Part shown: in pieces, positions 6,301 to 45,700 of the stretch
Layout: each line of letters begins with the position of its first letter
How positions within the stretch are numbered: position 1 is the stretch's first letter
Source of the DNA: Sipunculus nudus
Lineage: Eukaryota; Annelida; Sipuncula; Golfingiida; Sipunculidae
DNA: 64,000 nucleotides
Reading direction: 5' to 3'
NCBI GenBank assembly: GCA_026874595.1
Contig: CM049306.1
Coordinates: 87,743,142 to 87,807,141, forward strand
The notes under the pieces: generated by a model
Told to the model about the DNA's origin: nothing
Databases searched by the model: none
The model's input: the letters and a program-made list of their open reading frames with translations, nothing else
Program-made: the position numbers and the translations under genes

Positions 6301-9300
6301 CTGTCATTAATGTCCTTACTTACCACCTTACTTGCAAATGAGGACACATATTAAGATACATGAAAGGGAGATGTTGGGAAGTTTTACAATAATGTGATCA
6401 AGATATTTTCCTAAAGCATACCATCAATTATTGTAGTTCAAGGAAAGGGGTGATATTAATTCAAAGAGTGATGACTCATCAAGCCTTTTTTAACTAGAAT
6501 ACGGGTAGTCGACAAGCGACTACGTGTATCCGCCTAAATCAGAGTGGAACGGGTGAAATGAGGCATGGATTGAGTGGCAAGGGAAAATAGAGTGAAGTGT
6601 TGCATATCAGCATGGATGTCTGCAGCCAAATTGTGTATGTAGGTTGCCCCCCCTTACCACAAAATCCAGAAAGCCGTCCAAGTTGTATACATATGCAAAA
6701 TTTAAGGCAGATAAGTCAAACCACTACATGTATATGAGTGATTTTAGCCCGTGGCAGACAAACAGATGGACGCTGAGCAAAAATGGTTGCAGGTGACGCC
6801 ACCAGTTTTGCGTATGATAAAGAGCTATGTGAGAACTATACACATGCAAAACTTTGTCCCAATCAGTCAAACGGTTCCCAAGATATGAGCTTGGATGTCT
6901 GCTGCATAAACTAGAATGCAGGTGGCGCCACCTGTCATAAAATCAAGAGAGCTGTCGGGGATGTATAAACCTGCAAAATTTTAGGCAGATATGTCAAACC
7001 ACTGCCGAGATACAAGTGATTTTATCCCATGGCAGACAAACAGACAGGAGCTGTGAAAAAATGGCTGCAGGAGGCGCCACCAGTTTTGCGTATGCTAAAG
7101 AGCTATGTGAGATCTATACACATGCAAAATTTTGGCCCAATCAGTCAAACGGTTCCCGAGATATGAGCTTGGATGTCTGCAGCGTAAACTTGAATGTAGG
7201 TGGCGCCACCTGTCATAAAATCAGAAAAGCTATCCAGGATGTATATGCATGCTGAATTTCAGGTGAATTAGTCAAGTCACTGCAGAGATATGAGTGATTT
7301 TAACCCAAGGCAGATGAACAGATGGACACTGTGCAAACATGGTTGCAGGTGGCGCCACCATTTTTTGTGTATGTTATAAAGCTATCCAAGGGCTACATTT
7401 GTGTAAAATTTTTAGCCTGATCGGTCAAACGGTTCCCGAGATATGAGCTTGGATGTCTGCAGCGTAAACATGCATGTAGGTGGCGCCACCTGTCATAAAA
7501 TCAGAAAAGCTATCCAGGATGTATACGCATGCCAAATTTCAGGTGAATTAGTCAAGTCACTGCAGAGATATGAGTGATTTTAACCCAAGGCAGACGAACA
7601 GATGGACACTGTGCAAACATGGTTGCAGGTGGCGCCACCATTTTTTGTGTATGTTATAAAGCTCTCCAAGGGCTACATTTGTGCAAAAAAATTTTCCTGA
7701 TTGGTCAAAAGGTTCCTGAGATGTGGGTTTATGTGTGGAAACAGACGCACAAACGGACGCAGAGGAAAGGTCAGAGGTCAAAACAAAATTTGGGCGCAGC
7801 AGTTCACATGTGACCCGAACATAATCCCGGGTTTCGTAAAATTCCGCCCAGTGGTTACGGAGGAGTTCTTCAGGACACCTACGCAGCGGCAGCGGCGGAG
7901 GGCTGAAAACATAGTATCCGCAAAACTCTGTTTTGGCGGATACAATAATTCAGTATATATTAAACATACATCTTGCTTACCAAAATCATTTAGTCCTTAG
8001 GTTTAGCTTTTACAGTTTATTTAAAATGACTCACTGAACTAAACTCATATTACTTATTTCAAATAATAAGCTGAAGCATTGTGCTTTTACATTTTTAAAT
8101 TTAAATAATTTTGAATTATTAAAAAGGTATGAGGAAAACTGGACTATCTTACCCTCTGGCCATACAGTTCTGTTTAATTTTTGTGGTGACAGAGGCATAC
8201 ACACTTGGGGGGAGGGCCAAATAGAACAGACGGTTAGCCTTCCCTCCTTTCTCAAGTTTTTTAATTCCTTCGTCTAACTTCTGGAAATCTTCTGTTTTGT
8301 CATATGATCCAGGAATGTATGAATTCATCTTGAAGAAATTATCAAGAGCATCCTTCTCTGAATCAGAAACCTGAAAGTACAATCTCATACTGTGTGAATC
8401 TTGAACAATGTATCAATCTGTCATTTTAATGCACCTTAGGTTAAAAAGAAGAGATATGATTTAGATTTCTTAAATGCCAGAATTAAGAAACGCAAAACAT
8501 AATTGGACATAAAAGACATGAGCACCACAAAAAAGCATAATACTTCAATGTCTTGTGACCTTTGACCTTATTTAATATTCACTGATTTTGCAGACAATTG
8601 AACCTGGGGGAGTTATTTTACTAAAATGTCCTTGTCAGCAAAACTCATTAATCCATAGTTATCACAGCAATACCACTAAGTTGTCTGGTACATAAATTGT
8701 TAAAATCTTGTAATGAGTTTCATGAAAATTCCTCAGATTTTTTGTAAAACAGCAAAGCTCCACCAAAGTCTGGTGACCTCTGACCTCATTAAATTTGCAT
8801 GGATTATGCCAGGCATTGAACTTAGGCAAGGTATCATATTTGTTAATATTTCTTTGGAGTTTTATCAAAATCCATCATATTCCTGATGAGTTAACTCCTC
8901 ATAGAAGCCTGGTGACCTTTGACCTCATTAAATATGCAAGGATTAGGCCTATAATTGAACTCAGGTGAGATAATCTACTGGTGAATAGTTATACTATAGT
9001 GAGTTTCATGAAAATCCATCAGAGCCCTGGTAGGCTATCAGGGCAACACAAAAAGTTATTGGACTGATGGTGGGTATGCCTAAATACATCCCTTCTAGGA
9101 TGGGCATATAAGAACTTAAAACAACTGCATCTAATAAAAAAAAAATTGGTTGGTTCCCATTTCAGTCAGGTGCCTGACACCTGAGTAAAAATAATTTAAT
9201 AAGCTGCATCAGCTATACACTTACCTTCATATGTGGTTCTGTCTTTTTTCTTACATCTTCCATTGTTAACTTGGAACGAGCATAACCTACAAAAAGTGTT

Positions 9301-42700: not shown

Positions 42701-45700
42701 TTCACACCTTATAAAGCCCAGAGAGCTTCTTTTAAACAACATCTGTCACTTTACATTGGATGATTAAATATGGTCAATGTATTTATACAGGGATACAAAT
42801 GATAGGGGTACAATATATGGCTTGTTGTCATGAAGTACTGGTGTGCTGGTTTAAAGATAATCACATAATGATACTGGTGTACCATAATATTTACCTCTGC
42901 CAATGTCACAAGGACAGGATCAAAAGGAATATCATCAAGGTCTGAGTCCCATTGTAGCTTGTGCTTCACAGACCCATGTACCAACCTGTAAATATAATAT
43001 TAAAGGATGAAGAAACACTGTTTGGAATTCATTTGCGTCCTGTATGATTGCAACTTGCATCGAAAACTCACAGGACTTTCACAGTATAACTAGATATTTC
43101 TTGGCATTGTAGGTGCCATAGTATCCCCAGACAATTAATCCCCCCTGCCTTTAGGAATAGGCACCCCATCTTAAGCAACAATTAATATCAGACCACACTC
43201 ATAGAAAAGGTCACTCTCATAGAAAAGGTCATGACTCCAATTTCAATATACATCATCCCCTAACCCATGTCTATGTATATGCATAATATGAAAGAAATCT
43301 GTCCATTAGTTTTTGACTTATAATGCTCACAGTACTGTTAAGTTACAATGATGGGGTATTAAACGGCACAAAAACAAATAAAAGAATAACAGGTGGCGCC
43401 ACCAGTTTCCGGTACATGAAAATACTATCCAAGATCTTTGGTCAAGTTGATTTTTGGACCAATCCATGCACCCTTTTTGAGATATTAAAGATTTTGTGTA
43501 ATTTTCACCATATATGGCAATATTTAAGGTCAAGGCCACTTTAATAGGAAAGGTCATGACCCAAATTTATATATACATCATCCTATAACCCATGTCAATA
43601 TATATGCATAATATGAAAGAAATCTGTCCAATATTTTTTTACTTATAATGCTCGCAGTACTGTTAAGTGGCAATGATGGGGGTATTAAAGGGCACAAAAA
43701 CAAGTAAAAGAATAACAGGTGGTGCCACCTGTTTTACAGTACATGACAATACGATCCAAGATCTTTGGTAAAATTTATTTTTTGACCAATCCATGCATCC
43801 CTTATTGAGATATTAATGATTTTGTGTGATTTTCACCATATATGGCAATATTCAAGGTCAAGGCCACTCTCATAGGAAAGGTCATGACCCCAATTTAAAT
43901 AAACATCATCCCATAACCTATATCTATGTATATGCATAATATAAAAGAAATTTGTCCATAAGTTTTTGACTTATAATGCTCACAGTACTGTCAAGTGGCA
44001 ATTTTGGGGGTATTAAAAGACACGAAAACAAGTAAAGAATAATAGGTGGCGCCACAAGTTTCTGGAACATGACAACCCTATCGATGATTTCGATCAACTT
44101 GATTTTGGGATCAATCCATGCAAGATTTCTTGAGATATTTAAGAATTTGTGTGATTTTCCCAAAATTGGACGTATTCAAGGTCAAGGACACTCTCCTAGT
44201 AAAGGTCATGACCTCATTTTAAATAGGCGTCTTCCACTCACCCATATCTATACATATACCATGTTTGGTAAAAATCCTTGAAATATTTTTTGAGTTATCG
44301 CGCCAACAAGATTTATATGCGGCGACAGCTGCTGTACCGGTATAAAAGCCCCCCCATTCCCTCCCTGTGAATGGTGGTTTTGTTAGTAAACTGTTGTGAG
44401 CTTTTCTGTATTAATAAGAATTTTCTCTGTTAAAGTTTATACGCCAGAGTAAGCCAACTGAAAATTTTCCCTTATTGGGCCCATTATCGCCCATCCCGCC
44501 TCACTCCCGTGTATCTAGGACACACTTCCGTTTCCTGTAATCACTTTTTCGATGGTGTTCGGAAGGAAACTGGGAGGGAGAGCTGTTTGTAATACAGAAA
44601 AGCTCACAACAGTTTACTAACAAAACCACCATTCACAGGGAGGGAATTGGGGGGTTTTATTACATAAACATAATCGTGAGCTGTTTCTGTATTAATGAGA
44701 ATATAGCAAATGGGCCAATGAGGTAGAGATGGCCCGGACGTCATGAGCTTTGACGTGATGTTGCTCCAATGTCGAAGGGGAAGCAGATTCATATGCAGAC
44801 ATGACGGTAGCTTTGAGGCATGCACTGATGGTGATAAGGCTAATATCTTTGTGAGAAGAAGTGATTTTCTTGGAATGAACAACTTCTTGCGCCCCCCCCC
44901 CCCCCCAGAATAGAACGGGAAGCTTGAAGATAATATCGGAAAGCACGGACTGGGCAATTAGTGGCCCGAAACCGGTACTGGCCGGTAGGGAGGACCGGAA
45001 CAGGCCAAGGTAACGGAGGATCATCACAATATAGGTTCTTCCATTAGAAGGCAGGGGGAACTGGAAAGTGGCGGACAATTCAACGGCCGCAAATGGTGTG
45101 AAGGTCGAATTGGCCACTAGATCATGAAGCTCTGAGCAGCGACCGTAAGACGCAAGAGCGAGGAGAAAAACGGTTTCCCACATCATAGAAGATGTAAAAC
45201 CACATCCAGATGTCAGGAACTGGATAGAGAGTGAGGACGAGAAGACCGCGCCCTAACCCCTTTGAGAAAGGCAGTCACTAGTGGATGGTGCATGTAGAAC
45301 ATGATAGGGACCCAGCGGACAAAAGACTGACAACAGGACGGGACAAGAGCCGCTGAGGGAGGTAGAGGACAAGTGTTTGCCCTGGAGGAAATAACGAATA
45401 ATTCGAAGACTGCCGTAACTGATGGATCAAAAGAAGAGATCCCTTGGTCATCAGCCCATCGGGAGAAGAGGAGCCACCGGGAGTCATAGATCCCGCCCAA
45501 ATAACAGTGAAGGGGAGCTAAAGTAAGCACATCAGCCATGTAGAAAAAGGTTCTGCGTATCGAGGTGTCAGATGTGATGAAGCAGGCGCTGTGGGAACGG
45601 ACAGAACTATAGTAGAACGAACAAGATCTGGAGAAGAACCGGTGGATGGGCCAGATATGAGCGGTATCTAGGAAAGCAATTAGCCGCTGTCGGATACCGA

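Follow-up and report, generated by a model that had tools for sequence, protein, structure and literature searches.

A candidate cis-acting palindrome in the tandem monomers of Helentron-like elements of Sipunculus nudus

The window analysed here is a stretch of 64,000 nucleotides (64 kb) from Sipunculus nudus (assembly GCA_026874595.1, contig CM049306.1, positions 87,743,142 to 87,807,141 of the forward strand), in which the perfect 12-base palindrome GGTGGCGCCACC recurs within several sets of repeats, named F1 to F4, F1 being a Helentron-like element. All 13 exact copies listed in the original prediction were recovered at their listed starts (6921 to 43392). The three one-base variants named there also exist (at 34280, 44045 and 55345), the starts of two of them having slipped by one to two bases, and six further one-mismatch copies absent from that list were identified (6792, 7070, 34403, 38206, 43718 and 56575), giving nine one-mismatch copies and, together with the exact ones, 22 sites. 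The expectation of far less than one copy by chance was borne out, as 100 dinucleotide-preserving shuffles of the window gave on average 0.04 sites with up to one mismatch (largest value 1). The repeats that carry these sites are as follows.

6494..7946, plus strand: F1 Helentron-like (HINE-like) element; hairpin and GTATCCGCC in the left flank, then the array, then the right flank with terminal hairpin TATCCGC..GGCGGATA
6604..7653, plus strand: tandem array of period 278 with two monomer types; core spacing alternates between about 129 and 149 bp
6921..6932, no strand: exact palindrome; in the same element 7199, 7348, 7479 and 7628 are exact, 6792 and 7070 have one mismatch
23340..25470 (approximate boundaries), plus strand: composite element, F2 then F3; F2 palindromes at 23393 and 23522, F3 palindrome at 24996
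30646..31474, plus strand: second F1 element, with ends as in the first; palindromes at 31039 and 31176
34190..36300 (approximate boundaries), plus strand: composite element, F2 then F3; F2 palindromes at 34280 and 34403, both with one mismatch
37700..38290 (approximate boundaries), minus strand: F1 array fragment; palindromes at 37878 and 38018 exact, 38206 with one mismatch
43207..44347, plus strand: F4 module, a 328-bp tandem array; palindromes at 43392 exact, 43718 and 44045 with one mismatch
55290..56900 (approximate boundaries), plus strand: composite element, F2 then F3; in F2 55345 with one and 55462 with two mismatches, in F3 56575 with one mismatch

The first F1 element thus holds seven palindromes, five exact and two with one mismatch, in its array of 278-bp period, and the F3 module of the composite element at 34190..36300 is devoid of the palindrome-bearing part (its counterpart in the sampled locus L002 lies at about 2484-2574).

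Across the genome (1,426,538,692 bases in 153 contigs), 111,729 exact copies of GGTGGCGCCACC were counted, compared with 14 copies of a control word made of the same letters read backwards, which is itself a palindrome, and with 10.3 copies expected from dinucleotide composition (Markov-1). When up to one mismatch was allowed, the counts were 218,178 and 575, respectively; 106,449 of the former carry one mismatch, while 51% are exact. The density in the window (13 per 64 kb) is approximately 2.6 times the genome average of 78 per Mb. A random sample of 20 evenly placed 10-kb stretches from 10 contigs yielded 14 exact, 11 one-mismatch and 12 two-mismatch copies, with the exact word in six of the 20 stretches; of the 60 12-mers most widespread in this sample, the palindrome and its one-base shifts were, by eye, the sole entries of normal complexity.

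Both F1 ends were seen in four copies, namely the two window elements (6494-7946 and 30646-31474) and, with small changes, loci L015 and L024; they read CTAGAATACGGGTAGTCGACAAGCGACTACGTGTATCCGCC on the left and TATCCGCAAAACTCTGTTTTGGCGGATACAAT on the right (in short, CTAGAATACGGG.. and ..GGCGGATACAAT), with the array between them. Subterminal inverted repeats (GTATCCGCC on the left, GGCGGATAC on the right) are present in the two window elements and in L015, and with one change in each in L024, while the 3' hairpin TATCCGCAAAACTCTGTTTTGGCGGATA was located at 7915, 31443 (one mismatch), L015 8602 and L024 5749 (three mismatches). The arrays between the modules span 6604-7653 (period 278), L015 7515-8578 (period 280) and L024 4760-5543 (period 278). 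HINE elements insert between two Ts without target duplication. In its two end modules, subterminal inverted repeats, 3' palindrome and central array, F1 is like Cg_HINE, the non-autonomous Helentrons of the Pacific oyster as described in the part of the source available (PMC7492417). The oyster monomers are mostly 140-180 bp long, and group 1 includes a member whose monomers differ except for two common motifs, which are likened to GGTGGCGCCACC here by description and not by letters; the palindrome described for Cg_HINE in that part lies at the 3' end, whereas the conserved palindrome reported here lies within the monomers (PMC7492417). The tandem-repeat list of the window has no left-module microsatellite at 6494-6604 of the kind present in oyster HINEs; a GGAC/GGACAGAC microsatellite at 18245-18304 is like the GTCY/GTCC that ends the left module of several of them (same source).

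Helentrons with coding capacity are also present, as 143 genome matches to Helitron_like_N were obtained, of which seven lie in open frames 2,229-2,426 residues long. Two such loci, C8:80134001-80149000 (L033, L034) and C13:66171001-66186000 (L035, L036), contain single open frames of 2,250 and 2,426 residues, respectively, the former encoding Helitron_like_N, OTU, PIF1 and endonuclease domains according to a domain scan. These two Helentrons are possibly recently active, since they are 82% identical across 6.6 kb of DNA. An AT-rich array (319-330 bp) without the palindrome follows the C8 frame directly.

The relationship between the palindrome-bearing repeats was assessed by clustering the flanks of 92 sites with up to two mismatches (from the window and further genome loci, nine being duplicates from L008, which overlaps L005) with the core, i.e. 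the palindrome itself, masked. Clusters of 65, nine, six and two sites were obtained together with ten singletons. The largest comprises F1 (278-bp arrays), F2 (right flank agtcttgtat) together with a small number of looser members, including most of a further set, F6 (agtctgcag..), while the cluster of nine represents F3 (aatacctcaatttca..atatgactcatgtgacc; the aatacctca set) and that of six F4 (328-bp units, agtttctggaacatgac). The three main clusters account for 12 of the 14 exact copies from the random sample, the other two being flank singletons. Additionally, F4, F2 and F3 were found to be modules of one composite element (F4 at 97% and F3 at 91% between L002 and L015), and the order F2 then F3 recurs in the window at 23.3-25.5, 34.2-36.3 and 55.3-56.9 kb. 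Just ahead of F3 in this composite element lies a tandem repeat of about 177 bp (L015 8631-9420 and L002 1836-2427), in which the palindrome is absent in L015.

A profile of approximately 80 bases to the right of the core, with the core excluded, was built from 74 core-bearing seed sites and searched against 276,048 bases (L003, L006, L007 and L008 left out), returning 106 places at an expectation value (E) of up to 1, 77 of which have a core with at most three mismatches at the expected position. A profile trained on the 54 sites outside F3, F4 and F6 matched seven of the 20 F3/F4/F6 target sites at E<=1, all seven at one register offset of two bases: two F4 sites (best 0.0057), three F6 sites (best 0.0056) and two F3 sites (0.059 and 0.64). 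Another four targets matched at E 2.3-9.6, though not in register in two cases, and nine were unmatched; a reversed-profile control gave no match at E<1 (with a training set including one F3 site) and four at E<=10 (with the 54-site training). As far as these alignments can tell, F4 and F6 are probably old relatives of F1/F2, while kinship of F3 with F1/F2 is only suggested. The notion of a shared core between unrelated flanks therefore held as regards divergence but is not supported as a general statement, given that 65 of the 92 sites form one cluster, that seven of the 20 targets match in register and that a single composite element combines three of the sets as modules. The flank clustering and the in-register matches both disfavour families that are entirely unrelated apart from a common core, and an exchange of whole units between families, which had also been proposed, is not needed.

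Conservation was compared in 74 monomers chosen by their flank only (63 seeds and 11 new). The flanks are not conserved to the same degree as the palindrome: mean pairwise identity is 0.863 in the core, 0.633 in the best non-overlapping 12 columns (CATGCAAAATTT) and 0.525 on average. When 2,485 of the 2,701 pairs were binned by flank identity, core identity was 0.846 (flank 0.3-0.4), 0.871 (0.4-0.5), 0.851 (0.5-0.6) and 0.831 (0.6-0.7), with values of up to 0.958 in near-identical copies. Mere shared descent is disfavoured, because core identity would then fall with flank identity; on these alignments, conservation of the core is not explained by descent shared with the flank alone. Both halves are kept, with 64 to 72 letters agreeing per position outside the CpG (71 to 74 present). 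The weakest columns are those of the central CpG, with 10 T among 72 letters at the C and 10 A among 72 at the G, and these changes look like methylation decay (CpG observed/expected is 0.63 in the random sample). Immediately left of the core, 70 of the 74 monomers have an A.

Variants within one subfamily, F1-A, were subsequently divided into private and shared ones. This subfamily, defined by two flank anchors, has 12,551 copies, of which the first 100 were considered; 74 were used (53 distinct), six being set aside for differing length and 20 as duplicates, although one of the latter (9613407) proved distinct in its flank, its core being exact. Among the 12 core sites there are 12 private and five shared variants, whereas the 31 sites of the flank have 14 and 29, respectively (p = 0.010 by Fisher's test, or 0.0044 with the two CpG sites excluded). 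The core does not behave as a cold spot, since private mutations per site, CpG included, are more frequent there (1.0; 12 in 12) than in the flank (0.45; 14 in 31). Inserted copies thus seem to decay freely while the breeding source lineages seem to keep the palindrome. As private variants fall in the core and shared ones avoid it, a cis requirement in amplification fits better than a host function at inserted copies. For the same reasons (conservation beyond the flanks, and avoidance of the core by shared but not by private variants) the selection for the palindrome postulated in the original prediction fits better than hitch-hiking.

The reading that we favour, while giving it slightly less than an even chance, is that GGTGGCGCCACC is a cis-acting, two-fold symmetric site for a putative protein, needed for amplification of Helentron-like elements that bear tandem repeats. 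The palindrome would be the functional core of tandem monomers, approximately 125-150 bp long in some cases and close to 330 or 410 bp in others, in a large group of non-autonomous Helentron-like elements, and its several copies per element would act as a recognition site in cis. Because the word is two-fold symmetric and recurs along the arrays, a dimeric binding protein is suggested; the putative reader would be either a homodimer or two identical DNA-binding domains acting as a pair. Loss of the palindrome would stop a source copy from amplifying, such that the breeding lineages still carry it, and inserted copies would be free to decay, CpG first. The palindrome is abundant, is conserved across diverged monomers and in both halves, and decays in individual copies; that a protein binds it, and that this binding contributes to the element's replication, transposition or expression, is what we infer. 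In a more ambitious form of this proposal, which we consider rather unlikely, one symmetric protein, whether element-encoded or from the host, would have in the order of 100,000 near-identical sites, and barely alignable lineages would compete via one word, amounting to a binding-site network maintained by selection. If a host factor does bind, the roughly 110,000 exact sites would constitute a large reservoir or sink for it. A conserved word with a measurable sign of selection on source copies makes the role of satellite-like arrays inside Helentron-type elements testable, leading from the binder of GGTGGCGCCACC to the function of the array.

Several observations weigh against a cis-acting site of this kind. 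Among the sampled loci, only five of 22 tandem arrays with a period of at least 80 contain the core (five of 17 outside the two Helentron loci), from which it follows that such arrays do not generally require it; its presence is close to all-or-none, because the best core match in the remaining 17 of the 22 has four to seven mismatches. The palindrome (up to two mismatches) and the F1 ends are both missing from the two intact Helentron loci (15 kb each), leaving an autonomous partner of F1 putative; an autonomous Helentron bearing GGTGGCGCCACC was likewise not found at these two loci. The wider site is not symmetric, since the core is followed by A or T but mostly preceded by A. Furthermore, all 74 profile seeds were core-bearing, such that lineages long without the core may be missed and core identity is biased upward to an unquantified degree; of the 11 non-seed monomers, seven have three core mismatches and four have six to seven. 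The comparison of shared and private variants covers 53 distinct sequences of one subfamily, and the cognate binding protein is putative.

In mammals the short interspersed element (SINE) B2 spreads sites for CTCF, and a serious rival to the favoured reading, though an improbable one, is that the present repeats similarly carry a host CTCF (insulator) site and profit from it. The left half of the palindrome with its flank reads YAGGTGGCGCC, which we take to be the core of the animal CTCF motif (YAGRKGGCGC); the consensus TAGGTGGCGCC fits this core, and the A that precedes the palindrome in 70 of the 74 monomers lies within the CTCF core yet outside the palindrome. An orthologue of CTCF is encoded at C11:67037578 (E 2.9e-79, compared with 2.4e-41 for the second-best match); it is identical at 123 of 196 residues to human residues 266-461 (fingers 1-7). 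By eye, its frame has 11 fingers; in fingers 3, 4 and 5 all four base-contact positions equal those in human, while those of fingers 1, 2, 6 and 7 differ in part. Fingers 3-7 of CTCF read the core motif, which is asymmetric and preceded by a conserved CC. This upstream CC is missing here, the consensus ahead of the core being CAAAAATGATTGTA, with which the partial difference of fingers 6 and 7 could go. The ACC of the second half, retained in 69, 67 and 64 of 71 letters, lies outside the CTCF motif, and a host site should persist at some inserted copies, of which the comparison of shared and private variants gave no sign. As for published data, ACTAGGTGGCGC lies within a guide oligo for a human CTCF site (PMC6344568), and in an annelid the CTCF motif was more frequent than any other in open chromatin (PMC7854359). 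The resemblance to CTCF sites spread by transposable elements thus extends to the YAGGTGGCGC half-site and to the repeat-borne spread, whereas here the full palindrome is kept.

Behind CTCF, large clusters of C2H2 zinc-finger frames were located on C16 (about 11-62 Mb) and also on C7, C9 and C11, among the matches listed out of 266 in all. Zinc-finger numbers track transposon content in animals, according to the part of the source available (PMC10547256), and a clustered C2H2 zinc-finger protein could be the binder of the palindrome.

Two further explanations each appear quite improbable to us. The palindrome may be a recombination or cut point for the exchange and expansion of monomers, remaining uniform through short gene conversion. 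A precedent exists in the satellite phBglII400 of the clam Ruditapes, in which junctions occur at palindromes, 13 of 16 at one of 12 bp (PMC5139131). Within the present material, F4, F2 and F3 are joined in one composite, and at 35.9 kb of the window the palindrome-bearing F3 segment is missing, with one break inside the word. Nevertheless, the first F1 array of the window starts about 40 bp ahead of its first (decayed) core, as far as the fuzzy edges given by the repeat finder allow, and gene conversion would have to work in tracts as short as 12-15 bp if the flanks were to stay different. Alternatively, the palindrome may act as nucleic acid, its self-complementary copies pairing into large loops in single-stranded or RNA rolling-circle intermediates; in favour of this, the palindrome is GC-rich and present several times per array in one orientation. 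Single monomers, however, have no RNA structure beyond that of shuffled sequences (mean z -0.30; 40 of the 74 monomers folded), pairing in these folds is little higher in the core than in the flank (0.61 versus 0.53), and no compensated variant family was noticed by eye among the clustered sites. Rfam returned three weak matches in the window, all of them away from the palindrome sites and below gathering score, one being a MIR6438 match on the minus strand at 38703-38792 (35.8 bits, gathering score 58). A monomer RNA hairpin or known structured RNA was accordingly rejected, there being neither a fold signal nor an Rfam match.

It is very unlikely that the word has no function and was conserved by chance in one old repeat group through hitch-hiking, a recent burst or a mutation-poor site, for even though some families look remotely homologous in register, such that common descent may play a part, and the conservation gap in F1-A arises partly from a few subfamily-diagnostic flank columns while several others are as invariant as the core, core identity stays flat as the flanks diverge and the CpG-containing core takes private mutations at more than the flank rate, both of which disfavour a cold spot or a recent burst.

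With regard to known systems, the CENP-B box is 17 bp long and not a perfect palindrome, and no similarity to GGTGGCGCCACC was noticed in it. It is alike in being a short protein-binding word in satellite monomers, and a motif similar to it is tied to monomer replacement in nematodes (PMC5139131). The same source, in the part available, describes the bivalve satellites BIV160 and Cg170, which resemble the present repeats in having diverged monomers with two well-conserved common motifs (BIV160 as an array of nine monomers in one clone), and the pearl-family miniature inverted-repeat transposable elements (MITEs) with DTC84 of Donax trunculus, for which that part reports neither the scale nor the cross-family conservation found here; all of these were compared by description only (PMC5139131). 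The kind of element is thus known, as are conserved words in such monomers (DTC84, BIV160/Cg170 and oyster group 1; PMC5139131, PMC7492417, both as far as seen). In the literature searched, no report of GGTGGCGCCACC in such repeats was encountered, the exact word being met only in a chitinase paper; nor did part-words combined with repeat and mollusc, or with satellite and bivalve, give any. Similarly, that literature held no prior report of the copy number or of source copies keeping GGTGGCGCCACC while inserted copies lose it. Conservation of a motif has bivalve precedent; what is novel here is how abundant the word is, together with the sign of selection on source copies. A 25-base form searched in prokaryote genomes and a 22-base degenerate form searched in viral contigs returned no stretches, as expected from collections without animals.

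Finally, positions 44001-48000 of the window stand out by a G+C content of 51% with strong GC (0.17) and AT (0.23) skew, the rest of the window having 31-41% G+C.

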